Positions 567 through 23,880 of a stretch of DNA of 27,096 nucleotides are shown piece by piece. The stretch's first letter is position 1. Every line of letters begins with the position of its first letter. The stretch is from a virus, in the IMG/VR virus record IMGVR_UViG_3300030117_002972, positions 1 to 27,096 of that record; one strand, 5' to 3'. Under the pieces are notes generated by a model. That model had not been told where the DNA came from. It saw only the letters and a list, made by a program, of their open reading frames with translations, and did not search any database. Both the position numbers and the translations under genes were made by a program.

Positions 567-587
567 AATGAATTGGAGAATATTTTA

Positions 588-809
588 ATGAGTAAACAAA
601 AATCAAAAGCATATATTGTTACATTAAAAAAGAAAGCTGCTAACTCTAAGTACTCCTACAGTACCTTATTAAAAGTGTACAAAAGAGGATTAGCTGCTTA
701 TTTATCTGGTGGAAGTAAAAGAGGAATGAGTCAACACCAATGGGCTATGGCTAGAGTAAATTCTTTTTTACAAGGTGACCCTAAACATGATACAGACTTA
801 AGAGCGTGA
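588..809 (+). CDS. Small phage protein resembling DUF5824
   Basis: I choose ATG 588 because GGAG at 575-578 precedes it by about 9 bases; the in-frame TTG at 573 would include that ribosome binding site in the coding region. The 73-residue product is basic. It contains a segment of the form VYKRGLAAYLSGG followed by QHQWAMARVNSFLQG (about residues 27-61). This matches the pattern I recognise from small phage proteins called DUF5824, in which VYxRGxxAY and WAMARVxSFL are conserved. Such genes often sit among structural or late genes in marine and cyanobacterial phages. No catalytic residues are evident and the role is unknown. The gene ends four bases into a GTG that could start the next frame. 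Confidence 0.6.
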   Translation: MSKQKSKAYIVTLKKKAANSKYSYSTLLKVYKRGLAAYLSGGSKRGMSQHQWAMARVNSFLQGDPKHDTDLRA

Positions 810-835
810 GTTCTTTAGGAGGATTATTTTTATAT

Positions 836-1060
836 ATGAGTAGATTAGATAAAGCGTTAAAAGATGTTGGTGGTAAAAGAACACAAAACTATAGGTTAAA
901 TCACCCTGCTAAATATTTAAAAGGTTCACAAGATGAAGAAAAAGCTGCAAAAGAAATGACAGAAACAGCAAAAAGATATAATGAAGGTACTTTAACTAAT
1001 GCTTATATAGAAGAAGTTGAAGACTATCGAAAAAAAGATAAAAAGAAAAGGAACGCATAG
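836..1060 (+). CDS. Small charged hypothetical protein
   Basis: The start is taken as ATG 836, downstream of a strong AGGAGG at 818-823. The frame is also open from GTG 806, but that codon lies upstream of the ribosome binding site. The product has 74 residues and is highly charged and helical, beginning MSRLDKALKDVGGKRTQNY and ending with a run of Lys/Arg (YRKKDKKKRNA). It has no membrane segment or cysteine pair. I do not recognise a family. Its stop codon TAG overlaps the GTG start of the next, very basic gene, so the two are probably translationally coupled. It could belong with that DNA-binding-like pair, but this is inferred only from adjacency and its basic C-terminus. Confidence 0.5.
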   Translation: MSRLDKALKDVGGKRTQNYRLNHPAKYLKGSQDEEKAAKEMTETAKRYNEGTLTNAYIEEVEDYRKKDKKKRNA

Positions 1061-1383
1061 TGAGAGCAAAATCAGTAAAAGCAAAATCGGTAAAACCAAA
1101 ATCAGTTGGAGCAGGTCCAAAAAAAACAAAACCAGCATCATCTGGAACGTCAGGTAGAGTAGCAAGAAGAGCAAAGCTACAAGAGGCTGCAAAAGCACGT
1201 AAAGCTATGAAAAAAGCTTTACCAGAAATAAAAAAAATAACCTATAAAAGTCAAGGTGGAGGTTTAAAGAGTCAGTTAAAAAAGAGAACTGCTGGACCAA
1301 AGCCAATGAAAAAAATAACACCAACTAAAACACCAAGAAAAGCTAGAAGCCCAAGAAAAACAGGCGGAGCTAGAAGGAGATAA
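1060..1383 (+). CDS. Histone H1-like, extremely basic protein
   Basis: The gene starts at GTG 1060 within TAGTG, overlapping the previous stop. The 107-residue product is dominated by Lys, Arg, Ala, Pro, Ser and Gly and has almost no acidic residues. It opens with near-repeats of AKSVK/PKSV (residues 3-16) and has the motif GTSGRVARRAKL at about 29-40. A helix-prone Ala/Lys stretch (QEAAKARKAMKKA) follows, and the tail is rich in Thr/Ser-Pro-Arg-Lys elements (KTPRKARSPRKTGG). The S/T-P-x-K tail resembles the DNA-binding tails of linker histones and bacterial Hc1-type proteins. The GRVxRR motif recurs twice in the following gene, so the two look related. A role in nucleic-acid condensation or binding is inferred from composition; a structural scaffold-like role remains possible. 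Confidence 0.6.
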   Translation: MRAKSVKAKSVKPKSVGAGPKKTKPASSGTSGRVARRAKLQEAAKARKAMKKALPEIKKITYKSQGGGLKSQLKKRTAGPKPMKKITPTKTPRKARSPRKTGGARRR

Positions 1384-1387
1384 CAAT

Positions 1388-1690
1388 ATGGGATATGGAA
1401 CAAAAGGTAGAGTTAAAAGAAGAGCAACGCTAAAAACTGCTGCTGCAAAAAAGAAGATAGCAAAATCACCTGCAAAAAAGTTAGGTAAAAGTATAACTAC
1501 TCTTAAAAAAACAGTAGGTGTTACTTCTAAACCAAAAAAAACACAAGGAACAGCAACAAACGTACGCAAAATGTCTCAACGTATTTTTGCAAAGGGAACT
1601 GCTGGTGTTCTTCCTTCTAGAAAACAAACAGGGCAAACAGCTGGAACAGCTGGTAGAGTTAAAAGAAGAAATGCAAACAAAAGGAAATAA
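1388..1690 (+). CDS. Second histone-like basic protein, relative of the preceding gene
   Basis: The gene starts at ATG 1388 with AGGAG at 1375-1379. The 100-residue product is again nearly free of acidic residues and rich in Lys, Arg, Ala, Thr and Gly. The motif GTKGRVKRRATL is near the N-terminus (residues 4-15) and GTAGRVKRRNAN is at the very end (86-97). Both match GTSGRVARRAKL of the upstream gene. Between them is an Ala/Lys stretch (KTAAAKKKIAKSPAKK) of the kind seen in H1-like tails. Terminal motif repeats suggest duplication of a short basic module. The protein presumably binds nucleic acid or another polyanion. Neither protein has a recognisable folded domain, and the codon usage matches the neighbours. 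Confidence 0.6.
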   Translation: MGYGTKGRVKRRATLKTAAAKKKIAKSPAKKLGKSITTLKKTVGVTSKPKKTQGTATNVRKMSQRIFAKGTAGVLPSRKQTGQTAGTAGRVKRRNANKRK

Positions 1691-1692
1691 AG

Positions 1693-1842
1693 ATGGAACT
1701 ATTAACTAATAACTGGGAATTGTTTGTAATAGGAGTACTAGTAATAGATAAGGTTGTTGCATTAAGTCCAACACCTTATGATGATATGCTATGGACAACT
1801 ATTAAGAACATGATAAGTAAAGCTACAGGAAAGAAGATATGA
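1693..1842 (+). CDS. Tiny membrane-associated protein (49 aa), paralogue A
   Basis: ATG 1693 follows the preceding stop by two bases, with AAGGAAATAA as ribosome binding region; the stop TGA is at 1840-1842. The product has an N-terminal hydrophobic helix (WELFVIGVLVI, residues 8-18) and then the motif LSPTPYDDMLWTTIKNMI. The next gene ends with a closely similar arrangement (ATPDVKDDLLWNKVKAIL), so the two are paralogues with pattern TPxxDDxLWxxIK. Small phage proteins with a membrane helix followed by such a TP-DD element are familiar to me from marine phages, but I know no assigned function. The location between lysis-type and virion genes would suit a lysis or assembly accessory protein. 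Confidence 0.5.
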   Translation: MELLTNNWELFVIGVLVIDKVVALSPTPYDDMLWTTIKNMISKATGKKI

Positions 1843-2006: not shown

Positions 2007-2290
2007 TGGAATTAGCTTTTAACATTAAGGAACTATTAGACGACATAAAAGATAAAGTATATCCTGATAAACCACCTATATGTCCTACATGCTTATCAAT
2101 AGATGTTGATGAAGTAGAAATAATAGGTGCACATGATAAAGCTTTATTTTGGGAGTGTTTAAATTGTAGTGAGTTCTTTTTACGATATGACAAAGAAAAA
2201 ACAAAAAAGTATTTAGACAAAGCTAATGATTTATTCATTGATGTTAACGATGATACAATGGAGGCTTTATGCCAAGAAAGACCAAACTAG
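2006..2290 (+). CDS. Small zinc-ribbon protein
   Basis: The gene starts at GTG 2006 inside TAGTG. The 94-residue product contains two CxxC knuckles, C26/C29 (CPTC) and C51/C54 (CLNC), separated by 21 residues. These are expected to bind one zinc ion in a zinc ribbon fold. The N- and C-terminal parts are acidic and helical. Its 3' end overlaps the metallophosphoesterase gene by 22 bases, and the GGAGG of that gene lies within its coding sequence, so the two are probably co-translated. Zinc ribbons in phages commonly mediate nucleic-acid or protein contacts. No catalytic domain is present, and the partner is unknown. Confidence 0.6.
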   Translation: MELAFNIKELLDDIKDKVYPDKPPICPTCLSIDVDEVEIIGAHDKALFWECLNCSEFFLRYDKEKTKKYLDKANDLFIDVNDDTMEALCQERPN

Positions 2291-3060
2291 ATAAGGGGGT
2301 TGTTAAAAGAGGAGTTGTATGTCCAGATAAACATTTTCCTTTAGCAGACCCTAAAGCTATTAGTTGTTTTTTACAAGCAATAGCTATTATCAAACCAGAC
2401 TTCTATGTAGATATAGGAGATGTAGGCGAATGGGAAAGTGTATCTCATTGGCAATGGAAGAAAAAGAAAAGACCACCTTTAGAATATCAATTACCTTTTG
2501 TTACTGATGAAATAAAAAAGGTAAATGAAGAGTTAGATAAGGTAGATGAAACATTAGACAAAGCAGGTTGCAAAACTAAATATATGTGTGAAGGCAACCA
2601 TGATGATTGGCTAAATAGGTTTCACGAAGAAAACCCTTACCTCGACTTTGTGGCTTTTCCAAAAGCAATTAAACTAAAGGAAAGAGGTTACAAATACTAT
2701 CCTGCAGGTGAGTATCTAAAGATAGGTAAACTACACTACTATCATGGACATCACTTTTCAGGGGTACATCACACTAGGAATCATTTAATGAAACTTGGTG
2801 CGAATGTAATGTACGGTCACTATCATGACCTACAACAAACAAGTGTCACTCATTTGGATGGAGTTAAATCAGCTTGGTCTATTGGGTGTCTTAAAAAGAT
2901 GGATGCACAGTCAAACAGCTTTTTATTAAATAGAAGACATAACTGGAGCCATGCGTTTGCAGTTGTAGATTACTTTGATAATGGTCACTTTACTGTACAT
3001 ATAGTTCAAATAATAGAAGGTAGAACCTCATTATGGGGTCAACTAATAAGGAGTAAATAA
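2269..3060 (+). CDS. Calcineurin-like metallophosphoesterase
   Basis: The 263-residue product carries the full ordered metal-binding signature of the family: D20-x-H22 (PDKH), G50-D51 (DIGDVGEW), G109-N-H-D112 (CEGNHDDW), H159/H161 (YYHGHH) and G183-H-Y-H186. These residues coordinate a two-metal centre that hydrolyses phosphomono- or diesters. The length fits a stand-alone catalytic domain. The start ATG 2269 has GGAGG just upstream (2260-2264). Related phage enzymes lie near virion or replication genes, and their substrates are mostly unknown. Cleavage of nucleotides, cyclic nucleotides, RNA ends or DNA is possible. Loss of host nucleotide signals is one idea for a phage-encoded member, but nothing in the sequence fixes the substrate. 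Confidence 0.85.
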   Translation: MPRKTKLDKGVVKRGVVCPDKHFPLADPKAISCFLQAIAIIKPDFYVDIGDVGEWESVSHWQWKKKKRPPLEYQLPFVTDEIKKVNEELDKVDETLDKAGCKTKYMCEGNHDDWLNRFHEENPYLDFVAFPKAIKLKERGYKYYPAGEYLKIGKLHYYHGHHFSGVHHTRNHLMKLGANVMYGHYHDLQQTSVTHLDGVKSAWSIGCLKKMDAQSNSFLLNRRHNWSHAFAVVDYFDNGHFTVHIVQIIEGRTSLWGQLIRSK

Positions 3061-10645: not shown

Positions 10646-10987
10646 GTGTATAAAACTGTTTTTGATATAGAGTCAGGAGATAGAGCTTCAAGGCATAATA
10701 ATCCAGGTGCTCATATGTTTACCAAATCATCACAAGATAGATTGTTTGATTCAACAGGAGTAAAAGGAACTATAGGTGATGCTTTTGTAGGGGAAGATGG
10801 TAATACTTATTATACTGCACAATATAACACACCACAAGAAGGAAGGAAAGCTTCTGAGTTTTTTATAGACGAAATACTTAGCAAAAGTAATAATAATTTA
10901 GAATTATTTTATAGTATGTACTCTGGTAAATCTCCAAATGATAGCATTGTAAAAGAAGTAGCAAAAAGAATAAAAGATGCCTCATAA
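10646..10987 (+). CDS. Small NNPG-type protein, predicted virion cell-wall-active or wall-binding domain
   Basis: The product has 113 residues and starts at GTG 10646, preceded by the purine-rich AAGAAAGAAG. It contains SRHNNPGAHMF (residues about 15-25), then TIGDAFVGEDGNTYYTAQYN and PQEGRKASEFFIDEIL, ending in a segment with MYSGKSPNDS. The order (NNPGN/A, a Gly-Asp turn, an aromatic strand, a helix after xPxEGxxA, then YSGxS) matches small phage domains associated with cell-wall lysis proteins. Those domains are commonly found next to or fused with internal virion proteins that open the peptidoglycan during DNA entry. The catalytic residue is not evident, so wall binding without cleavage is possible. 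The stop overlaps the GTG/ATG region of the giant gene (ATAATGG), supporting co-expression. Confidence 0.5.
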   Translation: MYKTVFDIESGDRASRHNNPGAHMFTKSSQDRLFDSTGVKGTIGDAFVGEDGNTYYTAQYNTPQEGRKASEFFIDEILSKSNNNLELFYSMYSGKSPNDSIVKEVAKRIKDAS

Positions 10988-13900
10988 TGGTGCAAAGAAA
11001 TCAACAGTTTGCAGCTTTCCAAACAGAAGAAGAATTAGATAATCAACTAGGATTAAACGCTCCTAATTGGCAACCTTCTTTTAGCAAAAAACAAACACAA
11101 GATTATATAAAAGCTTATAAGCAGGATGCTAGACAATTTAACCCACCTATGTTAAGGTTGGTTACTAAACATGCAAAACATCATAGAATACCTTTTGCTT
11201 ATAATGCTGCAGATAATGAAGCAAGTCTTCAAAGTATAATAGGTAATTTTAGTACTTCTTTAGTAGAAGGTTTTACAACTGCTAAAATTTCTAATAATCC
11301 TCCTACAAATACAGCAGATGCTATAGCTAAAAACTTAGGACACCTTGCAGGTTTTATTGGGTATATACCTGTAATAGGTAAAGGACCAATAGCAAGATTT
11401 TTAAGAGAACAAAGAGGCAAATCAATTCCTTTACGTGTTGGTAAATTTGCTAGAAGAAAAGCAACTAAATACGCAAATAAAGCAATAGATAGTAAAACAA
11501 ATGCTTTAATAGATGGATTTACTGTTTTTAATCAACCTGTTGGTGCAATAGGTAAAGATATGGCACAAGGTGCTTTAGAGCTTGGAGTGGCAAGTGCTTT
11601 TAGTTCTTGGCGTGAAGGTGTAGATGGTGCATTTCAAGCTTTAATTGGTGGTGGTTTAACAGGTGGTGCATTTAGAGGATTAGGAAATCTTATCCAAGGG
11701 TTTGGACCACAAGGAGACAAAGCACTTAGAGGTATAGCTTCTTCTATATTTGAAGGGTTACCTGCACAACAAGCAGGTTTAACTACTCCAGAGATTATAT
11801 ATTCGTATTTGTTAGGTGCATATTTTGGTTACAATGAAATGCCTTTTCATGTTAGAAAAGGAGGTAGTTTTTTAAAAAAAGCTTTTAATAAAGATAATAG
11901 AGATAAACCTGTAGAAGAAGTACCAGGTTTTGAAAGATTAGATAATGTAACACAAAAGTATGTTATTAGAAAACATGCTGAAATACCAAAAGGTACATTT
12001 ATTACAGAAGCATTTCTAAAACAATTAGAAAGAGAAGGGTTATTAAAACTTCCTACAGAAAAAGAAATAAATAAAAGATTAGAAGAGATTAGAAAACTAG
12101 AACAAGACCAAAGATTAGCAGAACAAAAAGATATAAAAATAGAAGACCTTGTAGAAACAGAACGTGCAAGAGCTGATAAAGAGGGTACAAAAGATTTTGA
12201 ACAAGATAACTATGACTTTGAAGTACCTACTATAAAATTAAGTATAAAGAATTTTGTAGATAATAGAATGAAAACAGTTCTAGATGCCTCTGTAAAAAAA
12301 GAAGGTTTTTATGGTAAAATAAAAACTTATCAAAAAGTACAAAAAGAATGGGATAGATTAGTAGAATTAGAGTTAGCTAAAGATAAACCTGGTAACCCTT
12401 CTGATAAGATGTTAGAATGGATGTCATCTAGAAAAGGTTTTAATACATCTTTTACAGATTTAAAAGATATTAATTTTTGGAGAGGATGGGGTAACAGAAC
12501 TATAAAAGCAGAACCTGTTAGTATATTTAGTATTAATATATCTAATGTAAAAAATAATAAAGTAGTTGGTATAAAAACAAAAAATTATGATAAACGACAA
12601 TTTACTATTATCTCTTCTAAAGAACTTATAGATAGCCAAGGCAATGAACCTGTTTTATTAGAAGAACCTAAAATAATTGATATAGTTTATAATAGAGCTT
12701 TTGATAATTTTGTTTCTCAAATAAGAGCAACTGAAGAAGGTAGTCTTTCACAACAAAAAGGACAAAGAGCTTATCAAGTATTAGACACAGTACAAATAAC
12801 TAGAGGCATTAAAAAAGATGGTACTCCTATTTTAGATACAGTATCTTTAGGTGATTTAGAAGGTTATTTTGGTAAAAATATTTATAAAGGTCAAGCAAAT
12901 CTTCAAAAAGAAGGGTATAAAGATTTTCTAAGCAATATACAAGCATCATTAAGAAATGAAATGGCTAAGCAAGGTTATTACTATTTTGGTGGTAAAGGCG
13001 ATGCACATAGACAATACTTTGTTAAGTTACATCCTTTAGCTGATATGCAAGTAAGGAAAAAACTTACTTCACAAAAATTTTTAGGTCTTAGAGGTACTGA
13101 AGAACAAATAACAAGAGAGTTTCAGCAAAGACCAGGAATAAAAAATCTTAGTAAATCAACAAACATAAAAACAATATTAAAAGATGAATTTGGTTTTACT
13201 TCTAAAGAATTAAGAGGTGTAGATGCAGATGCTGATTTTCTTTCTAATTTATATTACGCTAAAGAATTAAATTATGGAGAAAGTTTTTTTAATGCTAACA
13301 TTCCTAAAAGATTTTGGGCTAGAAATAGCAATATGAATAACCCTAATCTAGTTGTTAAGAATGTTAAAGATTTTAATAAACGTCAACAAATATGGTTTAC
13401 ATCTGGTCATGAAGCTGAGTTACAATTTCTAAGAAGGCATATAAATGATTTAACACCTGATGGTAAATTTAGATACGCATTAGTTATAGGTCCAGAAACA
13501 GAATTTATAAACCAAGATAAATTAACAAATAAAGCTAAGAATAGTCAATTTAATGAAAGTGAAGATGGTGGTATCCCTGCAAGGTATGATGTCATAGAAG
13601 GCTTAAATCGTGAGGCAGGCATCCCATTTGATGGTTTCTTTAATAAAAGTTTTATCGTCTCACCTGATGCTGTTTATGGCGGTTTAATTGGAAAGTATGG
13701 TATGCATTCTGTTACAGAAGCTGAGAATGCTTACATGATGAAGAAAAATATACATTTTATAGTAAATGCTTTAAGTGCAAAAGCATCAGGTACAAGAACA
13801 TATCAATCTTATGAGTGGAATAACAAAACAAAAGAATATGATTGGTTTGATTTAAAGTTTGATAGAAAAGGTGAGAAAATTATATCTCGTAAACCATCTA

Positions 13901-16900
13901 AGAATAATGAACCAGTTATATATGAAATGGATGTATCTCATGTAAAGACTGTACCTAGTGAGATTGCAACAGAAAAAGCTAAGTTTGCACAAAGAATACC
14001 TAAACAAATATATACAAATTTAACACGATATTCTAAAGAACCTATAGACCAAAAAGATATTGATGATTTTATAAGAACAACTATGACTCAAAGAATAGCT
14101 GGTTTAGATGAATCTAATAAATTAATGAATGCATTTTTAGCTAACCCTGATAGGTATTTAAAAACAGATTACATTGATAATCTTGTAGATAATCATATGG
14201 ATAGAATGGGTATAAGTTTATTTTTAGATGGATTATCTAATAATACAAAAGGTGGTCATGAGTTTGCATCAAAAGCATATGCTAAAATATTACGTGTTAA
14301 TAAAGTAATAGAAGCAGAAAAATTATTAGAAGATGGAGAAACTGCAAAAAGAGTTGAGACTGAGTTAAAAAACTTATCTGACTTTGAATCTATACATGAA
14401 AGATTGTTACGTATAAATGAAGGTAAATTATCTGGTTCTCTTCACAAGTTTGTTACACCTATGAGAGGTGCTGCTATAAGAAACTATGTTATAAATGAAT
14501 TAACAAAACCAAAAATGGATAATAGTCTTAGCGTAAGAATGCGTATAATGACTAGAGCTATGAAATTTGGAGAATTTACAAGTGTATTAGAAAAATCAAA
14601 AGGAGATGAATACTTTTTTTTAGATGAAGGCTTTAGAGATTTTAGATTAAAAACAGATTTTACCAATCAAACTAACGCATTTACTTTAGGTGAGCTATGG
14701 GATGTAATACAAAAATATAAAAAAACTCCTACAGAAAAAGTTTTTGGAAAAAATATAAAAGGAAGAACTGATGTTGATGCTTCATTTATCCGTAAAGCTA
14801 ATGAAGTTTTAAATGCTCTTGCTGTTAGAGTACCAATGGATAGTATGTCAGGTGCTGCAGTATTAAAATTTGGAGGATTTACTGGGGCTAGAGGTTTAGG
14901 TGGTTTAATACATGGCAGAACTATGAAAAAGTTAGGTGGTGCTGATTTAGATGGTGATAAGATGACTATCTTTTTTGGAGATGAAACACATGGTTTCCAT
15001 AAAAAATGGAAAAATATGTTTAAAAAACAACGTGATGAATACTTAAATAAAGATGGTACAGAAAAAAATAATAAAACAACTATTATAGAAGTTGATGGTA
15101 AAAAAATAAAAGTTAAAGATGTATTTACTGATACAGATGAATTTTTAGAAGAGATTGTATCAAACCCTGTATATGCTTATTCATCTTCAGCTAGGCTTGC
15201 TATTTCTCGTGCAGCAGCTACTGGTAGAGAAAGATTAGGAAGTGCTGTTAGTAATAAAGCAGCTATTACTGCAGTACATTCTGAAGTTGGTGGATTACCT
15301 GCAAGAAAAATAAAACTTGTTGATAAAAAAGGTAAGACACAAACTGTAAACGTTCCTAAAGATACTTATGTTTATGAAGTAGAACATATAGTTAGACAAG
15401 GTCCAAATAAAGGTAAAAAAATAAAAGTACCTATTTTTATGACAGCTAAAACAGACCCAAAATCATTAGAAGAATTTAGACTTAGAGCTAGAGCAGCTAT
15501 TGCATTAGGTTCTGACCCTATGGATGAAGCAGGTCTTGCAAGTAGAGAACGATTTTTCCAAGAATTAGTTAAACCAATGTTTACTTTTAAACATGTTAAT
15601 CCAAAAAAACATGATAAAATAAATTTAGATGATTATAAAGAAATTCCTTTTTTAAGAATGAAAGGGATTAATAATGTATTATATGGTAGAAATCATCCTG
15701 CTAATAGAAGATGGTATGCTTTTGAAATACGTAATTCATTAGAAGCAGCATTTACAGACCCTGCTGTAGGTCCTGATTTTTTATACTATGATTCATTTAA
15801 CAATAGAAATTCTTTTTTAGCTAAGATTGGTGATGAAGGTAGAAGATTAGATTTTAGTGAAAGTATTTTTAAAAGATTAAATTTTGAAGGTAAGGGTGGT
15901 TATTTTGAATTATATAATCAGTTCCAAAAAGATTTAAAAAGTAAAAATTATAAATGGTTACAAGAAATATTGCAAAGAAGAAGCATGGCAGTGCCTCATA
16001 ATCAACATATAAGAAGAGTATTAGAACATGAATTGTTTACATATGAAGGATATCAACGTCAATTAAATCCTAATGTTACTAACAATAAAGATAAAAGAAT
16101 GAACTATAACCCTGAGTTATTTAAAGGTTATGGACCTATTGAAGATACTAAAGCATATAAAGAATATTTAGAAACAGGTTTTATGAGTAGAAAAGTTAGA
16201 GAAAACTTTTTAAATGACTATGTAAAAGCTGCAGAAGATTTTATTATAAATGATTTAGCAGATTTTACTAGTATAAAATTAATAAAACAATATGCAGATA
16301 TAGTAGGTAACCCAGAAAGAATATTAAAGATACATAGAGATAGTGAATCTTTTAAAAATGCTAGTGCAGATTTATATAAAGAAGGCAAAACAGATATTGA
16401 TTTAGCAAAAAATTTAGTAGCCTCTATTGAAGACCCAGCAAATAAAAAAATTAAAACAGAGTTAGAATCTATATTAGACATGTTACCATCAGTTGATAAA
16501 GAATCTTCTATTACAAAACGTGCAGATATGGATTCTCGTATTAAAAGGTATAAAAATAATGAATTAGAAACTAAAGCAGAAAGAGATTTGTTTGACCAGT
16601 TTATGCTTGGTACTTTAAATAGAGGAAGAATGGAATCAATGAATACTGTTTTAAAAAGGTTACAAAATTTAACAGGTGTTAAAGTTGATTTTAAACCAGG
16701 TACTAAAAGATTTGACGAATTAAGTGATGCAGACTTTCTTAAAATACAAAAGATTGATGGTGCAAGAGCTTTATATAACTCTGCTTATTCTATGTATTTA
16801 AATTCTGCTGGTACTAGTTTAGTTAGATTAGGTTTTTCATCACCATCTATATCAGAGAATAGTTTAAAAACATATTTTAATGATTATAATAAATTATTTA

Positions 16901-19900
16901 GTTCTGTTGAATTACCTAAAGAAAAAATAATTAAAGAAGCTGAAACAGTTGTAGAAAATATAGATAAAAAACAAACAATTACAGATGCTGATGGTAATAA
17001 AATTAAAATTGGAGTTTTAAGTAGTAATGATTTTGATATAAAAACACAAAAGTATTTAGATGAGATAGCACCTTTTGAAGGACTTGCTAAAGGAACTTTA
17101 ACTAAAGAAGAAGCTACTGTAAAAAATGAAATACTAGACAGTATAAGACATTACTTTGGTGGAAGAGGAGCATTGCCTGGTGTAGAATTAAATGGATTAG
17201 CTAGACATTTAGTAGGTAAAGATTTAAATGCTATGAATTATAAAGATTATGTAGTGTTTAATAACTATTTAAAAGATTTTAGAGAAGGACATTTTATTGC
17301 TAAATTGTTTGGTTCTGCTAAATATTTTCCTGAGTATGGTAAAGACCCAAGTAAACCTTTAAAAGGTTTTCCTGAGCTTGGTAGAAGGTTTTATTATCTA
17401 TTTCCTGAAGCAGTTAATAAAGAATTACAAATGTTTGAGTTAAATCTAGTAGACAAAACAGGTGTTTATAAAGATAAACTTGGCAATACATTTTCTGGTA
17501 ATGTTAAAAAACCAACACAAATTATAAATCAAATTAGAGATACACATCATTATGCACAACAAAGTGTAACAGCAGAGTATGAAAAACAAATAGCCTCTAT
17601 GGACAATGATTTAAGTCATTATATATCTGTTGAAGATGGTGTAAGCCTATATAAAGTACAAGCTGCTATGAGAGAAAGATTTGGTTTGATATCAGAAGCA
17701 AGTAATCTTGATAAAGTTACTCCTGAATATGGTTTTTTAAATGATGGCAAAAGAGGGTCAAATGAAAAACAAGCTAAATTGTTTGAGTATAACAAAGTAT
17801 TTAGAGAAACTATTAATAGTGCAAATTGGCATAAAATAAAAAATAAAATTTATATTGTTAATCTACCTAAAGAATTAGGTGGTACTAAAAAAATGACTGG
17901 TTTAGAAATATCACAAAAAATATTTGAACAAGTAACTAAACATAATAAAAGATTTTATGACATATTAGTTGGTAAAGAAGAAGTTTATAGAAAGTACACT
18001 GATATAGTAGAAAAAGAAACAGACCCTAAAAAAATTATTCAATCATTAGATAAATTAGCTGAAGTATTTGCTAAAGATGTACAAGATGCTATTAATACTG
18101 AGACACCATTGAATCCTAATATTGGTATGGACCCATTACGTAGAATCACTAAGTACCTACAACTAAGGCAGTTAAAGGATTCATTTCAAGGAAAAAATAT
18201 CTTAGACCCTGAGACTGGAGAGCTATTTGGAACTGATGCTTTTGTAAGAGAAATACAAAATGTTCCTAAACAAATAGAAAAAACAGGTGAAATACCTTTT
18301 GATTTTTATTTTCCGCATATGATGTTTGAAAGAAAAGCTGTAGGGGAAAGCTTACGTAGGCAAATAAAAGCTATTATTAAAGATTTAGATAGTAATAATC
18401 CTGCTATTGTTAGAGCTAAAAGAAAAGAATTAACAAACATAATGATTAGACACAAACAATTAACAGGTGATTGGTTTACTGATACTGAATTAACTAATAG
18501 ATATACTGATATAAACAAAATATTATCAGGCATAGGAGAAAAAAGAAAAGATTTATTAGATGAAGGTTTTAAAAACTTTTTAAAGAATAGAAGAGTAGGT
18601 AATCAATTTAAAAGAGAATCACATTTAGGTGGTTTTAGCTATGACCCATTAGCTTATAATAATTATGTTAAGAATATATTAAATACTTTTTATAGACAAA
18701 TTGGTGAGATATCATCTAATGATGCAATATATACTTTTAGAAAACAAAAATCATCACAGATTGGTCAAGAATTAACAAATAGATGGACTGAATATTTACA
18801 ATTATATTCTAACGAAGCTTCTGGTGCTCCTGTAAATATACCTAATCATGTATTAAATGACCCTGGTATGAAGATAAAAGGTACATTGTATGCACAGTTT
18901 GCTGACAATCTTTGGGTTAAAAGAATGAATAAACTTAGAGATAAGTTAGGATTAAGAGGTAAAACTGTAACAGAGTTTGTTGAAGTAGTTGAAAAAGCTA
19001 ATAATCCAATAATAAAAGTTATATCAGGTGGACAAACAGGTATAGATGAAATGTTTTTAAAAATAGCTAAAAGTAATAATATAAAAACAGGTGGTACTGC
19101 CCCACCAGATTGGGAAAGAAGTGGAAGAAGAGATGGTGTTAAAGAAACTAGAGAAGAAAGAAAAAAACTTTTACAAGGATATGGATTAGTTGAAGGTGAA
19201 CCAGACCGTAAAAAGTACCCTAAAAGGACTAAAAAAAATGTAAGAGATGCTGATGGAACTATTGCTTTTATGCCTCAACCTAGTGTAGGCACAGGTGCAA
19301 CTATACGTTATGCAGAAACAGGACGATGGGGAAAAGAAAGCATAGACAAAGATGGTATAAAGCCAATATTAGTAATAAAAAATTTACAAGATAAAAAACA
19401 AGCAGTAAAAGATATACAAGATTTTATTGAAACAAATAATTTAAAAACAATTAATGGTGCAGGACCAAGAGAAGATAAGTTTACAAAAAATCAAGAACAA
19501 GATGTTCAATCAATTTTAAATGATGTTTTTAAACGCAAAATAGATAAAGTAGAAAGAAAAGAAGTAAGAAAACAAACTGACGATACTATTCCTCCAGAAT
19601 TAAAAGATTGGGACTTTGGTTCGTTAAAAGCATTTAGTTCTTTTGATGCAAGATACAATCTTATGTCATTGTTAGCTCATCCAAAAAGTGCAGTGACTAA
19701 CTTGTTTGGTGGTACTGTACATACATTAGCAAGTACAGGGTTAGAAAATTTTAGAAATGCTAGAGATATAAACTATTTACGTTCTAAAGTAAATAAAGAA
19801 TGGACAAGTATGGGAGATGTTTATAACTGGGTAAAAAGTCATGGTGTTGTAGAAGACTTTTTATTATATGAGTTACAAATTAATCCTAATGTTCAAGGTA

Positions 19901-20805
19901 GAAAGATGCAAACTGCATTAAAAGAAGCGTTTCAAAAAATAAAAAAGAATCCTGATTTTAAAGATAAAGATTTATTAGATATAGCAAAAAGAAATGGTAT
20001 ATCAGCTACTGTATTTAACAAAGCTGCTTGGTTTATGAGAGCTCCTGAAAGAATATTAAGAAGAGATGCTTTTGTTGCACATTACTTACAAGCTAAAAGA
20101 AAATTTGATGGATTAATACAAGACTACAACAACCCTTACTTAATTGACATGGCTAAAAAGGGTGTAAAAGGAACACAGTTTTTATATAGTGCACCATTTA
20201 GACCAGCATTTGCTAGAAGTAGTATGGGTAAAATATTTAGTCGTTTCCAATTGTGGGGTTACAATTCTGTAAGATTTAGAAACGATGCTTTAAGAGAAGC
20301 TAAGATATATGGCTTTGAAGGTGAAGCAATGAAAAGAGCTGAAAGAATTTTTATGGCAGACATGATGATGTTTGGACTAGCTGGTATGTTTCCTCTATCT
20401 ATATTTGAAACAGCATTACCAGCACCTTGGAACTATATGCAAGACATGAGTGACCTTATGTTTGGAGATGAAAAAGAAAGAGATAGGGCTTTCTATGGTA
20501 CATATCCAAGAGCATTAGCCCCATTACAAGTAGTTACTCCACCAAGTTTAAGATTGTTACCACCACTATTTAAAGCTATTGTAGAGGATGATTATGGTAG
20601 ATTGTCTGATTATCATATGTGGGCAGCTGCACCTTATGGAAGACTAGCAAGAAGTGTTGTTGGTCCAGGTGGTATATTAAATAACCCAACAAGAATGGTA
20701 GAAACAATGACAGGATTTCCATTATTAAGTTTAAGTAAAATAACTAGGGATGCTAAGAAAATTGATTTACCATCACCAGGAGATGACGCAAAGTATGTCT
20801 ATTAA
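10987..20805 (+). CDS. Giant virion protein: predicted two-barrel (DPBB) RNA polymerase with SLOG insertion and membrane-active ends
   Basis: The product has 3272 residues and starts at ATG 10987. The N-terminal 300 residues hold Gly/Ala amphipathic helices (GHLAGFIGYIPVIGKG near 118; ALIGGGLTGGAFRGLGN near 218) typical of ejected virion proteins. Residues ~859-1440 carry RNA polymerase signatures: DG882-883 before FNKSFIVS, candidate Lys at 932 and 987, PKQIYTNL near 1005, RVP1281-1283, GGADLDGDKM with D1320, D1322 and D1324, and RERLGSAVSNKAAI near 1415. The xADxDGDxM core binds catalytic Mg2+ in multisubunit RNAP beta-prime, YonO, crAss-like gp66 and QDE-1 enzymes. A SLOG domain is inserted at ~2674-2848. 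The C-terminus has conserved giant-protein segments (SPF-like APFRPAFARSSMGKI; FQLWGYNSVRF near 3088; FGLAGMFPLSIFETALPAPW near 3129). It probably travels in the virion and enters the cell. The polymerase call is motif-based. Confidence 0.75.
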   Translation: MVQRNQQFAAFQTEEELDNQLGLNAPNWQPSFSKKQTQDYIKAYKQDARQFNPPMLRLVTKHAKHHRIPFAYNAADNEASLQSIIGNFSTSLVEGFTTAKISNNPPTNTADAIAKNLGHLAGFIGYIPVIGKGPIARFLREQRGKSIPLRVGKFARRKATKYANKAIDSKTNALIDGFTVFNQPVGAIGKDMAQGALELGVASAFSSWREGVDGAFQALIGGGLTGGAFRGLGNLIQGFGPQGDKALRGIASSIFEGLPAQQAGLTTPEIIYSYLLGAYFGYNEMPFHVRKGGSFLKKAFNKDNRDKPVEEVPGFERLDNVTQKYVIRKHAEIPKGTFITEAFLKQLEREGLLKLPTEKEINKRLEEIRKLEQDQRLAEQKDIKIEDLVETERARADKEGTKDFEQDNYDFEVPTIKLSIKNFVDNRMKTVLDASVKKEGFYGKIKTYQKVQKEWDRLVELELAKDKPGNPSDKMLEWMSSRKGFNTSFTDLKDINFWRGWGNRTIKAEPVSIFSINISNVKNNKVVGIKTKNYDKRQFTIISSKELIDSQGNEPVLLEEPKIIDIVYNRAFDNFVSQIRATEEGSLSQQKGQRAYQVLDTVQITRGIKKDGTPILDTVSLGDLEGYFGKNIYKGQANLQKEGYKDFLSNIQASLRNEMAKQGYYYFGGKGDAHRQYFVKLHPLADMQVRKKLTSQKFLGLRGTEEQITREFQQRPGIKNLSKSTNIKTILKDEFGFTSKELRGVDADADFLSNLYYAKELNYGESFFNANIPKRFWARNSNMNNPNLVVKNVKDFNKRQQIWFTSGHEAELQFLRRHINDLTPDGKFRYALVIGPETEFINQDKLTNKAKNSQFNESEDGGIPARYDVIEGLNREAGIPFDGFFNKSFIVSPDAVYGGLIGKYGMHSVTEAENAYMMKKNIHFIVNALSAKASGTRTYQSYEWNNKTKEYDWFDLKFDRKGEKIISRKPSKNNEPVIYEMDVSHVKTVPSEIATEKAKFAQRIPKQIYTNLTRYSKEPIDQKDIDDFIRTTMTQRIAGLDESNKLMNAFLANPDRYLKTDYIDNLVDNHMDRMGISLFLDGLSNNTKGGHEFASKAYAKILRVNKVIEAEKLLEDGETAKRVETELKNLSDFESIHERLLRINEGKLSGSLHKFVTPMRGAAIRNYVINELTKPKMDNSLSVRMRIMTRAMKFGEFTSVLEKSKGDEYFFLDEGFRDFRLKTDFTNQTNAFTLGELWDVIQKYKKTPTEKVFGKNIKGRTDVDASFIRKANEVLNALAVRVPMDSMSGAAVLKFGGFTGARGLGGLIHGRTMKKLGGADLDGDKMTIFFGDETHGFHKKWKNMFKKQRDEYLNKDGTEKNNKTTIIEVDGKKIKVKDVFTDTDEFLEEIVSNPVYAYSSSARLAISRAAATGRERLGSAVSNKAAITAVHSEVGGLPARKIKLVDKKGKTQTVNVPKDTYVYEVEHIVRQGPNKGKKIKVPIFMTAKTDPKSLEEFRLRARAAIALGSDPMDEAGLASRERFFQELVKPMFTFKHVNPKKHDKINLDDYKEIPFLRMKGINNVLYGRNHPANRRWYAFEIRNSLEAAFTDPAVGPDFLYYDSFNNRNSFLAKIGDEGRRLDFSESIFKRLNFEGKGGYFELYNQFQKDLKSKNYKWLQEILQRRSMAVPHNQHIRRVLEHELFTYEGYQRQLNPNVTNNKDKRMNYNPELFKGYGPIEDTKAYKEYLETGFMSRKVRENFLNDYVKAAEDFIINDLADFTSIKLIKQYADIVGNPERILKIHRDSESFKNASADLYKEGKTDIDLAKNLVASIEDPANKKIKTELESILDMLPSVDKESSITKRADMDSRIKRYKNNELETKAERDLFDQFMLGTLNRGRMESMNTVLKRLQNLTGVKVDFKPGTKRFDELSDADFLKIQKIDGARALYNSAYSMYLNSAGTSLVRLGFSSPSISENSLKTYFNDYNKLFSSVELPKEKIIKEAETVVENIDKKQTITDADGNKIKIGVLSSNDFDIKTQKYLDEIAPFEGLAKGTLTKEEATVKNEILDSIRHYFGGRGALPGVELNGLARHLVGKDLNAMNYKDYVVFNNYLKDFREGHFIAKLFGSAKYFPEYGKDPSKPLKGFPELGRRFYYLFPEAVNKELQMFELNLVDKTGVYKDKLGNTFSGNVKKPTQIINQIRDTHHYAQQSVTAEYEKQIASMDNDLSHYISVEDGVSLYKVQAAMRERFGLISEASNLDKVTPEYGFLNDGKRGSNEKQAKLFEYNKVFRETINSANWHKIKNKIYIVNLPKELGGTKKMTGLEISQKIFEQVTKHNKRFYDILVGKEEVYRKYTDIVEKETDPKKIIQSLDKLAEVFAKDVQDAINTETPLNPNIGMDPLRRITKYLQLRQLKDSFQGKNILDPETGELFGTDAFVREIQNVPKQIEKTGEIPFDFYFPHMMFERKAVGESLRRQIKAIIKDLDSNNPAIVRAKRKELTNIMIRHKQLTGDWFTDTELTNRYTDINKILSGIGEKRKDLLDEGFKNFLKNRRVGNQFKRESHLGGFSYDPLAYNNYVKNILNTFYRQIGEISSNDAIYTFRKQKSSQIGQELTNRWTEYLQLYSNEASGAPVNIPNHVLNDPGMKIKGTLYAQFADNLWVKRMNKLRDKLGLRGKTVTEFVEVVEKANNPIIKVISGGQTGIDEMFLKIAKSNNIKTGGTAPPDWERSGRRDGVKETREERKKLLQGYGLVEGEPDRKKYPKRTKKNVRDADGTIAFMPQPSVGTGATIRYAETGRWGKESIDKDGIKPILVIKNLQDKKQAVKDIQDFIETNNLKTINGAGPREDKFTKNQEQDVQSILNDVFKRKIDKVERKEVRKQTDDTIPPELKDWDFGSLKAFSSFDARYNLMSLLAHPKSAVTNLFGGTVHTLASTGLENFRNARDINYLRSKVNKEWTSMGDVYNWVKSHGVVEDFLLYELQINPNVQGRKMQTALKEAFQKIKKNPDFKDKDLLDIAKRNGISATVFNKAAWFMRAPERILRRDAFVAHYLQAKRKFDGLIQDYNNPYLIDMAKKGVKGTQFLYSAPFRPAFARSSMGKIFSRFQLWGYNSVRFRNDALREAKIYGFEGEAMKRAERIFMADMMMFGLAGMFPLSIFETALPAPWNYMQDMSDLMFGDEKERDRAFYGTYPRALAPLQVVTPPSLRLLPPLFKAIVEDDYGRLSDYHMWAAAPYGRLARSVVGPGGILNNPTRMVETMTGFPLLSLSKITRDAKKIDLPSPGDDAKYVY
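13561..15306 (+). other. Predicted double-psi beta-barrel RNA polymerase core within the giant protein (residues ~859-1440)
   Basis: Upstream barrel: IPFDGFFNKSFIVSPDAV (879-896) parallels the DG-x-x-x-S element of QDE-1/crAss-type enzymes. K932 (SAKASGTRTY) and K987 (VSHVKTVPSE) are candidate counterparts of the two barrel lysines, and PKQIYTNL resembles the NRQIIxLL helix after that barrel. Downstream barrel: RVPMDSM (1281-1287), IHGRTMKK (from about 1307), then GGADLDGDKMTIFF (1317-1330). The pattern matches RxP, a His, then NADFDGDQMAVH of cellular beta-prime. A helix with GRERLGSAVSNKAAI follows, in the position of LGxIxNxH of two-barrel enzymes. The lysine assignments are inference and need structure prediction. 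Confidence 0.7.
19006..19530 (+). other. SLOG / YpsA-type (putative molybdenum-carrier family) domain inserted in the giant protein
   Basis: Residues ~2674-2848 contain KVISGGQTGIDEMFLKIA (SGGQTG at 2680-2685), NIKTGGTAPPDW, YPKRTKKNVRDADGTIAFM (2744-2762), VGTGATIRYAE, KPILVIKN and INGAGPREDKF (2822-2832), followed by a final helix. The order SGGQTGxD, GGxxP, RTxxNVRDxDGT, GGT/GTGxT, NxAGPRES is the signature of the PF12694 putative molybdenum-carrier group of the SLOG superfamily, which has a Rossmann-like nucleotide-binding fold. Flanking sequence (LWVKRMNKLRDKLGL before; DWDFGSLKAFSSFDARYN after) looks like continuous giant-protein backbone, so the domain reads as an insertion. Confidence 0.8.
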
Positions 20806-22699: not shown

Positions 22700-22935
22700 T
22701 CTGCACACTTAATATGACCGCTTCTTGCTCTAGGATATTCGTAGTCACTATCCATTTGCACAGTCATTTTAGATAACAACCTTTTTGCTAACAATATTTC
22801 TTTATCTACACTATCGTTTTCTTTACGTAGTCTTGACTTGATATCTTCCATATCTTTTAGATAATCTTGTGTTAATTCTAGCATAAGGTCGTGTTCTTCT
22901 TGTTCTACACTTGCTATACGTTTTGCTACTGCCAT
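22687..22935 (-). CDS. Small coiled-coil protein with C-terminal CxxC
   Basis: The product has 82 residues. ATG 22935 overlaps the stop of the HNH gene (TAATG) and has AGGAGGG upstream within that gene. The sequence is a long charged helix (EQEEHDLMLELTQDYLKDM and SRLRKENDSVDKEILLAKR), suggesting a coiled coil. It ends with a short segment HIKCAECED containing one CxxC. No family is recognised. A regulatory or accessory role in the early operon is possible, but nothing specific is visible. Confidence 0.5.
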   Translation of the reverse strand: MAVAKRIASVEQEEHDLMLELTQDYLKDMEDIKSRLRKENDSVDKEILLAKRLLSKMTVQMDSDYEYPRARSGHIKCAECED

Positions 22936-23375
22936 TAGTATTTCCCTCCTTTTGACAATTTAGTTAATATATACTTACTTATTTCTTCTGTTTGTTCTGA
23001 TAACCAAGATAAGATATATTTAAAATCTTTTTCTCTCAATGCACCTTTTCTTGTGTTACAGGTTTTACATATCATTTGTAAGTTTTTTGGTATTGACTTA
23101 CCTTTTTTAGACAAAGGTATTATATGGTCACATACCATATTTCTAACATTTAGAGTTTTATCACAATACTTACATTGTTTGTTATATGCTAAATAAAATA
23201 ATTTTTTTATATCATTTAAACTAATATCAAACAATACATCGTATTCTTCTGAACGTTTTTTAAGTGATTGTTTTAAAGCACTTGCTTTACGTGATAGTCT
23301 TTTCCAGGCACGGTTCCATTGACGACCGTGTACCTCAACTAACTTTTCTCTAAATTTATTTTTTTTGTATTCCAT
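22935..23375 (-). CDS. Free-standing HNH endonuclease
   Basis: The product has 146 residues. A basic N-terminal helical part (NRAWKRLSRKASALKQ) is followed by the HNH signature: C68-x-x-C71 (CKYC), DH83-84 (VCDHIIPLSKKGKS), N98 (PKNLQMICKTC) and C103-x-x-C106 with N107 (CKTCNTRKG). The His-Asn-Asn/His beta-beta-alpha metal core cleaves double-stranded DNA; the two CxxC pairs bind a structural zinc. The domain resembles the HNH_5/HNH_3-type enzymes common in phages as homing endonucleases or packaging nicking enzymes. Distance from any terminase gene in this window favours a selfish or accessory role. The start ATG 23375 has no clear ribosome binding site and lies just downstream of a two-tier palindrome. 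Confidence 0.8.
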   Translation of the reverse strand: MEYKKNKFREKLVEVHGRQWNRAWKRLSRKASALKQSLKKRSEEYDVLFDISLNDIKKLFYLAYNKQCKYCDKTLNVRNMVCDHIIPLSKKGKSIPKNLQMICKTCNTRKGALREKDFKYILSWLSEQTEEISKYILTKLSKGGKY

Positions 23376-23455: not shown

Positions 23456-23671
23456 TTATGCTAAATAATATTCAGCATACTTTCCATTATCAAGACGTGA
23501 TACCTTTTCTTGTGTCTTGATATTCATGTTGTGACGATTACGTAACTCAAATATAATAGCACTTAATCTAGTTGCATTGAACTTTTTAAATGCTTGCATT
23601 GATGTAATCTTACCACCTCTTTCAAGGTGACGTTTTACTTTTTCTGTTTTAGTTAATCTTGTTCTTGACAT
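23456..23671 (-). CDS. Small winged-helix (HTH_39-like) DNA-binding protein
   Basis: The start is taken at ATG 23671, since GGAGAG lies in the preceding sequence (TTGGAGAGATTAATG); the in-frame TTG four codons earlier would include it. The 71-residue product has the pattern TEKVKRHLERGGKITSMQAF, then KKFNATRLSAIIFELRNRH, then NGKYAEYYLA. This matches the HTH_39 helix-turn-helix domain of phage proteins: a helix, a short turn with ITSxxA, a recognition helix with RLSAxIxELR, and a beta wing. Such proteins usually bind DNA as regulators or modulators. It is part of the early leftward operon, with a one-base start/stop overlap with the upstream gene. Confidence 0.7.
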   Translation of the reverse strand: MSRTRLTKTEKVKRHLERGGKITSMQAFKKFNATRLSAIIFELRNRHNMNIKTQEKVSRLDNGKYAEYYLA

Positions 23672-23880
23672 TAATCTCTCCAATCAATTGTAATTTGGTA
23701 AGTAAACATTACTTTCCAAACAGTTAACGAAATATGTATATGCTCCACATTCTTAACTTTTTTGCCAAACTCAAATATAAATCCAATGAAATTAAAAAAC
23801 AATATTTTAAATCCATATATCTTTTTATCTTTGCTTGGAAACCAGTATTGAATCTGTAACAGATACGCTAGTATACTCAT
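23671..23880 (-). CDS. Small aromatic-rich, possibly membrane-associated protein
   Basis: The product has 69 residues, starting at ATG 23880 overlapping the stop of the primase-helicase gene (ATGA) and ending one base into the next ATG (TAATG). It is rich in Phe, Tyr, Trp and Ile, with a hydrophobic stretch of roughly residues 22-38 (YGFKILFFNFIGFIFEFGK) and a later strand-like segment (EHIHISLTVWKVMFTYQI). The translational overlaps on both sides argue for a real gene. I recognise no family with confidence. A small membrane or membrane-proximal protein of the early operon is the simplest reading. Confidence 0.5.
   Translation of the reverse strand: MSILAYLLQIQYWFPSKDKKIYGFKILFFNFIGFIFEFGKKVKNVEHIHISLTVWKVMFTYQITIDWRD

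Follow-up and report, generated by a model that had tools for sequence, protein, structure and literature searches.

A pair of adjacent genes for small basic proteins sharing a GTxGRVxRR module in a virus that is probably a marine phage

The window, that is, the whole stretch of DNA analysed here, comprises 27,096 bases with 31% GC and is classed as linear by IMG/VR. It belongs to a virus of bacteria that is probably marine, judging by its relatives. Two adjacent genes on its plus strand encode basic proteins, as the first-pass annotation had reported: P1 (1060..1383, GTG start, 107 aa) and P2 (1388..1690, ATG start, 100 aa). P1 contains 25 Lys and 12 Arg and has a net charge of +35, and P2 contains 21 Lys and 10 Arg and has a net charge of +31. 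The earlier description of the two proteins as almost free of acidic residues is literally true of P2, which has no Asp or Glu, and needs slight qualification for P1, where 2 Glu and no Asp are found among the 107 residues.

The ribosome-binding-like sequence AGGAAC lies upstream of P1, whose GTG start has one base in common with the stop codon of the preceding gene (806..1060), and a similar site, AAGGAG, is found 8 nt ahead of the ATG of P2. The codon use of both genes fits the rest of the genome to a degree that is reached, for each gene, by none of 1000 synonymous base-composition nulls. One antisense ORF, at 992-1198, was rejected as a gene by its codon use. A second one, at 1276-1569, scores 0.059 versus 0.067 for P1 and is not dismissed by codon use alone; the gene case for P1 and P2 therefore leans partly on the ribosome sites and the gene order. 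Codon use and ribosome-binding-like sites together support P1 and P2 as real genes.

Immediately upstream of P1, an 84-aa charged protein without a family match is encoded (806..1060, plus strand), the last base of the gene falling within the P1 start codon. It is preceded by a DUF5824 protein (573..809, plus strand; Pfam PF19141, E = 8.2e-11), which has only 19% K+R and does not pass the basic filter used below; in pelagiphages, the relatives of this protein are basic and belong to runs of basic genes. A small gene with a hydrophobic segment, judged by eye, is located at 351-566, and on the other side of the cassette a 49-aa gene with a hydrophobic segment occupies 1693..1842 (plus strand), similar-looking genes being seen by eye in two related stretches (L044 and L045). 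The metallophosphoesterase gene at 2269..3060 (plus strand; phrog_221, E = 1.6e-25) was used as the anchor for finding relatives. A 1115-aa protein and the proteins following it have no strong family match, and we take them, by eye only, for tail or virion parts. Elsewhere in the window, a 3272-aa ORF (10987-20805) covers 36% of the sequence and looks like the giant multi-domain "polyvalent" kind, and an HNH endonuclease gene is found on the minus strand (22935-23375; Pfam HNH, E = 1.2e-12), with a closely similar ORF in a sister contig. Among the genes of the window, whose start is near the P1/P2 cassette, none was recognised as encoding an endolysin.

The sister contig (L004) encodes a 1115-aa protein that is 56% identical, and its partial phosphoesterase agrees at 71 of the 73 residues present. 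It starts inside the phosphoesterase gene and so lacks the stretch equivalent to P1/P2. In its remainder, only two ORFs of at least 50 aa pass a basic filter of K+R ≥22% and D+E ≤10%, and these match, by eye, the HNH gene at 22935-23375 and the gene at 23456-23683 of the window. Searching with a profile built from two sequences of the 1115-aa protein recovered only this already known contig.

P1 and P2 share a short module, GTxGRVxRR, which occurs once in P1 and at both ends of P2, in agreement with the first-pass annotation. Copy 1 is GTSGRVARR, in P1 (1144..1179, plus strand, GTSGRVARRAKL), copy 2 is GTKGRVKRR, near the N-terminus of P2 (1397..1432, plus strand, GTKGRVKRRATL), and copy 3 is GTAGRVKRR, near the C-terminus of P2 (1643..1669, plus strand). 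Six-frame translation of the window gives these three copies, all within P1/P2, and no fourth one in either the strict or a relaxed form; the reversed DNA pattern of the module has no match in the window. The module recurs more than would be expected from composition. Within P2, the best 9-mer match, between the two ends, is 8/9 and is reached by none of 1000 composition shuffles. Between P1 and P2, the best 12-mer match is 9/12 (GTxGRVxRRAxL) and is reached by 2 of 1000 shuffles. The best 9-mer alone, at 7/9, is equalled in 31 of 1000 shuffles; the link between the two proteins therefore depends on the 12-mer match. Local alignment of the whole proteins yields a score of 75, equalled in 25 of 2000 shuffle pairs.

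At the DNA level, an exact 18-base repeat, GGTAGAGTTAAAAGAAGA, underlies both P2 copies and is one of two 18-mers present twice on the plus strand of the window. Copies 1 and 2 are identical at 29 of 36 bases and both carry the AxL extension, which is absent from the C-terminal P2 copy. The genome is biased towards GGT (66%) and AGA (76%) codons, a bias that contributes part of the third-base agreement between the copies. Allowing for this part, the copies likely arose by duplication of DNA. The suggestion that the module might be a cleavage signal was rejected, as nothing was found in its support.

The first-pass annotation had also pointed to S/T-P-R-K elements in the P1 tail. Three S/T-P-x-K/R motifs, TPTK at residue 87, TPRK at 91 and SPRK at 97, are indeed located in the tail segment encoded at 1318..1359 (plus strand), with a shuffle P of 0.008 (0.010 and 0.037 for alternative wordings of the motif). 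P2 has one such motif, SPAK, which is not significant (P = 0.17). The shapes of the two proteins were modelled with single-sequence AlphaFold, at low confidence: the mean pLDDT and the pTM are 75 and 0.30 for P1, and 68 and 0.21 for P2. In P1, the prediction consists of a long basic helix (31-64), which starts in the module and has a mean pLDDT of 86-95 across blocks 31-60, a short helix (69-77), and basic arms flanking the long helix. In P2, helices are predicted at 5-20, 28-44, 55-68 and 90-96. The two outermost ones start in modules 2 and 3, respectively, and the C-terminal one falls in a block with a pLDDT of 65. The two weak models thus agree in placing the beginning of a predicted basic helix at the module. 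Six stretches were tested for amphipathicity. P2 28-44 has a moment of 0.52 and a shuffle fraction of 0.008, and P1 31-64 is marginal (fraction 0.044); the other four are not unusually amphipathic, including the P2 module helix 5-20 (fraction 0.82).

These features bear on the label "histone H1-like" that had been given to the pair. Like the C-terminal tail of linker histone H1, the proteins are Lys-rich, carry S/T-P-x-K and have hardly any acidic residue; a Lys-rich tail with S/T-P-x-K, as in H1/H5, is found in P1 with its three motifs, and P2 has a single, non-significant one. However, linker histones H1/H5 possess a winged-helix globular domain, whereas neither of the weak single-sequence models of P1 and P2 contains such a fold or any globular core, and neither protein matches a Pfam family. 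The likeness therefore extends to tail-like composition, and P1 and P2 were rejected as true linker histones.

Relatives of the two proteins were sought in several collections. Pfam gave 0 families for P1 and P2 up to E = 1, and PHROGs, NCBIfam and the PDB sequences gave nothing usable, a PDB match to P2 at E = 0.57 being discounted. A tblastn search of phages with both proteins returned nothing with E up to 10, which is a weak test, as BLAST masks low-complexity sequence. Scans of IMG/VR with P1 and P2 yielded 91 and 45 pattern stretches, respectively, and no relatives; they relied on exact 8-mers, which detect close relatives only. A search of five related records with P2, run without a positive control, gave no match, and the relaxed module was found in plus-strand ORFs of at least 40 aa at none of the best 80 of 209 phosphoesterase loci, many of which end nearby.

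The module itself was searched for in IMG/VR as a DNA pattern with AGR arginine codons, which gave 18 stretches. Three of them (L005, L020 and L021) form one family, with GTAGRVLRR within a frame of ~1650 residues. In another (L015), the module lies within a 462-residue frame, and in two (L012 and L018) a stop codon interrupts the motif. The remaining 12 occupy chance-looking stop-to-stop frames of 11-232 residues. Of the 18 stretches, only those of the three-member family have the motif, GTAGRVLRR, embedded in basic sequence. A K/R pattern that was looser but included the A-x-L extension had no match; the looser motif was scanned in viruses with other arginine codons with this extension only. 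The extended pattern with all arginine codons gave 13 stretches, 7 of which code the module uninterrupted, in chance-looking frames, 1 has an internal stop and 5 do not code the module. In GTDB genomes, the extended AGR pattern gave 4 stretches, 3 of them coding the module. Two of the coding frames are related and 84 residues long, and the third (L127) has 483 residues and is not basic. The first-pass annotation had regarded confinement of the module to this genome, by chance low complexity, as an argument against its proposal. By sequence the module is largely so confined, but its repetition still exceeds composition.

Small basic genes as such do recur in related marine phages. At the best 80 of the 209 phosphoesterase loci in IMG/VR, ORFs of 60-220 aa with K+R ≥24% and D+E ≤10% were collected. 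Twenty ORFs pass this filter. Eleven of them, spread over 9 of the 80 loci, are no more than 1 kb away from the phosphoesterase; among small plus-strand ORFs in general, 320 of 1030 are this close. The remaining 71 loci, many of them ending early, have no basic ORF within that distance. The 11 nearby ORFs represent few families and are not independent, L054 and L055 sharing one protein; L064 has one further basic ORF. In L028 and L031 a basic ORF comes after the counterpart of the 1115-aa gene, and the basic proteins of L031 and L048 belong to DUF6321 (PF19846). For the 95-aa family of L050, a family label considered at first was not confirmed by Pfam and was dropped.

Seven annotated phage records were treated with the same K+R and D+E thresholds, without a size limit and excluding end-truncated genes. 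They were picked through matches to the phosphoesterase, DUF5824 or the L050 95-aa family and are not a random sample; in 6 of the 7 the gene that served as bait is counted among the basic ones. The longest run is found in HTVC033P, with 7 consecutive basic genes out of 46. It corresponds to gp36-gp42 (L104:14594-15939) and lies beside an amidase gene. HTVC202P has 3 consecutive of 14 genes, HTVC111P 3 consecutive of 13, HTVC026P 3 of 15 (two of them adjacent), Roseobacter phage CRP-5 3 of 12, and HMO-2011 4 of 12, with gp68 annotated as overlapping gp69. Cyanophage MED4-184 has 4 consecutive of 9 (L110:2372-3246), a run bordered at each end by a hypothetical gene, beyond which lie the head morphogenesis gene on one side and the major head protein gene on the other. 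By eye, the MED4-184 run includes a DUF5824-like gene and relatives of pelagiphage basic proteins. A set of basic genes thus appears to be common to cyanophages and pelagiphages. The run adjoins a lysis-type gene in all 4 pelagiphages (peptidase M15 in HTVC202P and HTVC026P, lysozyme in HTVC111P, amidase in HTVC033P) and an annotated lysis gene in 0 of the other 3. Of the 27 genes of the window, only P1, P2 and 23456-23683 satisfy the filter, and P1-P2 is the sole adjacent pair, forming a run of at least two adjacent short genes with K+R ≥24% and D+E ≤10%. No paper on such runs was found among the open-licence literature searched; in passages of PMC9038755, the strings "proteom", "histone" and "basic" do not occur.

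Like P1 and P2, the members of these marine-phage runs (DUF5824, DUF6321 and unnamed families) are short, mostly 36-130 aa with one of 345, have 24-40% K+R and at most 10% D+E, and often stand several in a row. Unlike P1 and P2, they do not show the full module, and 54 comparisons with P1/P2 revealed no significant similarity, the best score being reached by 6 of 300 shuffles. Neither protein matches the DUF5824 or DUF6321 profiles in Pfam, and pairwise scores against members are at chance. P1/P2 is an orphan pair within a descriptive group, the small basic proteins of marine phages, and the open-licence papers searched yielded no functional test of this group. Regarding bacterial histone-like proteins, Pfam, which presumably includes profiles of chlamydial Hc1/Hc2, gave no family for P1 or P2. 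Hc1/Hc2 are likewise Lys-rich with repeated short units, pentamers in Hc2 (PMC2848022); the P1/P2 unit is longer, contains Arg and Gly and is present in three copies. In chlorella virus PBCV-1, basic virion proteins have been proposed to bind and neutralise the packaged DNA, but this is an algal virus with a lower DNA density, and two of its six proteins are of 63-69 kDa (PMC3281028, in part).

The proposal that the proteins bind DNA or RNA is in keeping with their charge, with the basic helix seen in the models and with the S/T-P-x-K arms, from which we infer that P1 and P2 quite probably bind nucleic acid. Starting from the observed genes, charge, triplicate module and neighbourhood, our preferred reading, held tentatively at nearly even chances, is that they are late, nonspecific DNA-binding proteins that coat or compact the phage DNA, either while it is being packaged or for its transport inside the virion. 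They would be expressed late in infection. Each would form at least one helix beginning at GTx-GRVxRR, with Thr or Ser as N-cap and Arg/Lys on the helix, and Lys/Arg-rich arms would flank the module helices, the S/T-P-x-K motifs lying on the P1 arm. P2, with its two terminal modules, could form a bridge between two stretches of DNA. On AT-rich DNA, the minor groove is the favoured site of the S/T-P-x-K motifs of linker histones, and the target would be the AT-rich DNA of the phage itself. The recurrence of small basic genes in related marine phages, close to the phosphoesterase or to lysis or structural genes, argues for such a DNA coat, and PBCV-1 virions, by the same source, contain basic proteins that remain DNA-associated, which is an analogy only. 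Arguments against it are the failure of the searches to find a homolog, the low confidence of the single-sequence models, the lysis-type neighbours of the pelagiphage runs (4/4), the lack of detectable relationship between P1/P2 and the other basic proteins, and the presence of a basic gene within 1 kb at only 9 of the best 80 of 209 phosphoesterase loci. An objection to packaging is that many phage heads offer little room (PMC3281028, in part).

The lysis-type neighbours would be expected if the basic proteins were cationic lysis helpers, made with the lysis genes and disturbing the outer membrane in the final phase of infection, much as is said of the "disruptin" reported for phage phiKT. 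The genes with hydrophobic segments (by eye) flanking the pair at 351-566 and 1693-1842 would suit this role, as would the amphipathic P2 28-44 and, marginally, P1 31-64. The other four stretches tested, the P2 module helix among them, lack this property, however, no annotated lysis gene adjoins the basic genes of CRP-5, HMO-2011 and MED4-184, an endolysin gene was not recognised in the window, which starts near the cassette, and S/T-P-x-K arms are better suited to nucleic acids; we consider this explanation rather unlikely. Slightly more doubtful is a role in host takeover, in which the proteins would bind the host nucleoid, RNA or ribosomes. The module, common to both proteins, is a short Arg-rich predicted helix amid abundant Lys/Arg and may be an arginine-rich RNA-binding helix resembling that of lambdoid N proteins, but its arginine spacing is one residue off that of the N peptides, such resemblance arises easily by chance, and P1 and P2 have lysis-type and structural-looking genes as neighbours rather than the replication genes.

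That P1 and P2 share the module, which P2 carries at each end, would also be explained by a docking peptide that takes P1 and P2 into the head, like the common targeting peptide of the T4 internal proteins. This is improbable, since the module is in no other reading frame of the window and is itself basic, which makes nucleic-acid binding the simpler explanation. That P1 and P2 are fast-evolving low-complexity ORFs of little function would agree with the failure to find homologs among phage records and in IMG/VR; this is very improbable given the codon use, the ribosome sites, a repeat beyond composition and the recurrence of basic genes in other phages.

The DNA-coating reading can be carried further to marine phages at large, SAR11 phages above all, in which a shared, dedicated and fast-replaced set of small basic proteins would constitute a chromatin-like coat around the AT-rich genomes, P1 and P2 being newly invented members and P2 a bridging one; we regard this extension as speculative and distinctly unlikely. 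Packed phage DNA is neutralised by ions and polyamines. Tailed phages are thought to achieve this neutralisation mostly without proteins (PMC3281028, in part), and HTVC033P is abundant in the ocean (PMC9038755, in part). What is new here is the context of small basic gene runs across related marine phages. Up to seven adjacent basic genes in ocean phages would challenge the notion of protein-free neutralisation, or else indicate a cationic lysis step, and P1/P2, with its defined module, offers a simple test case.
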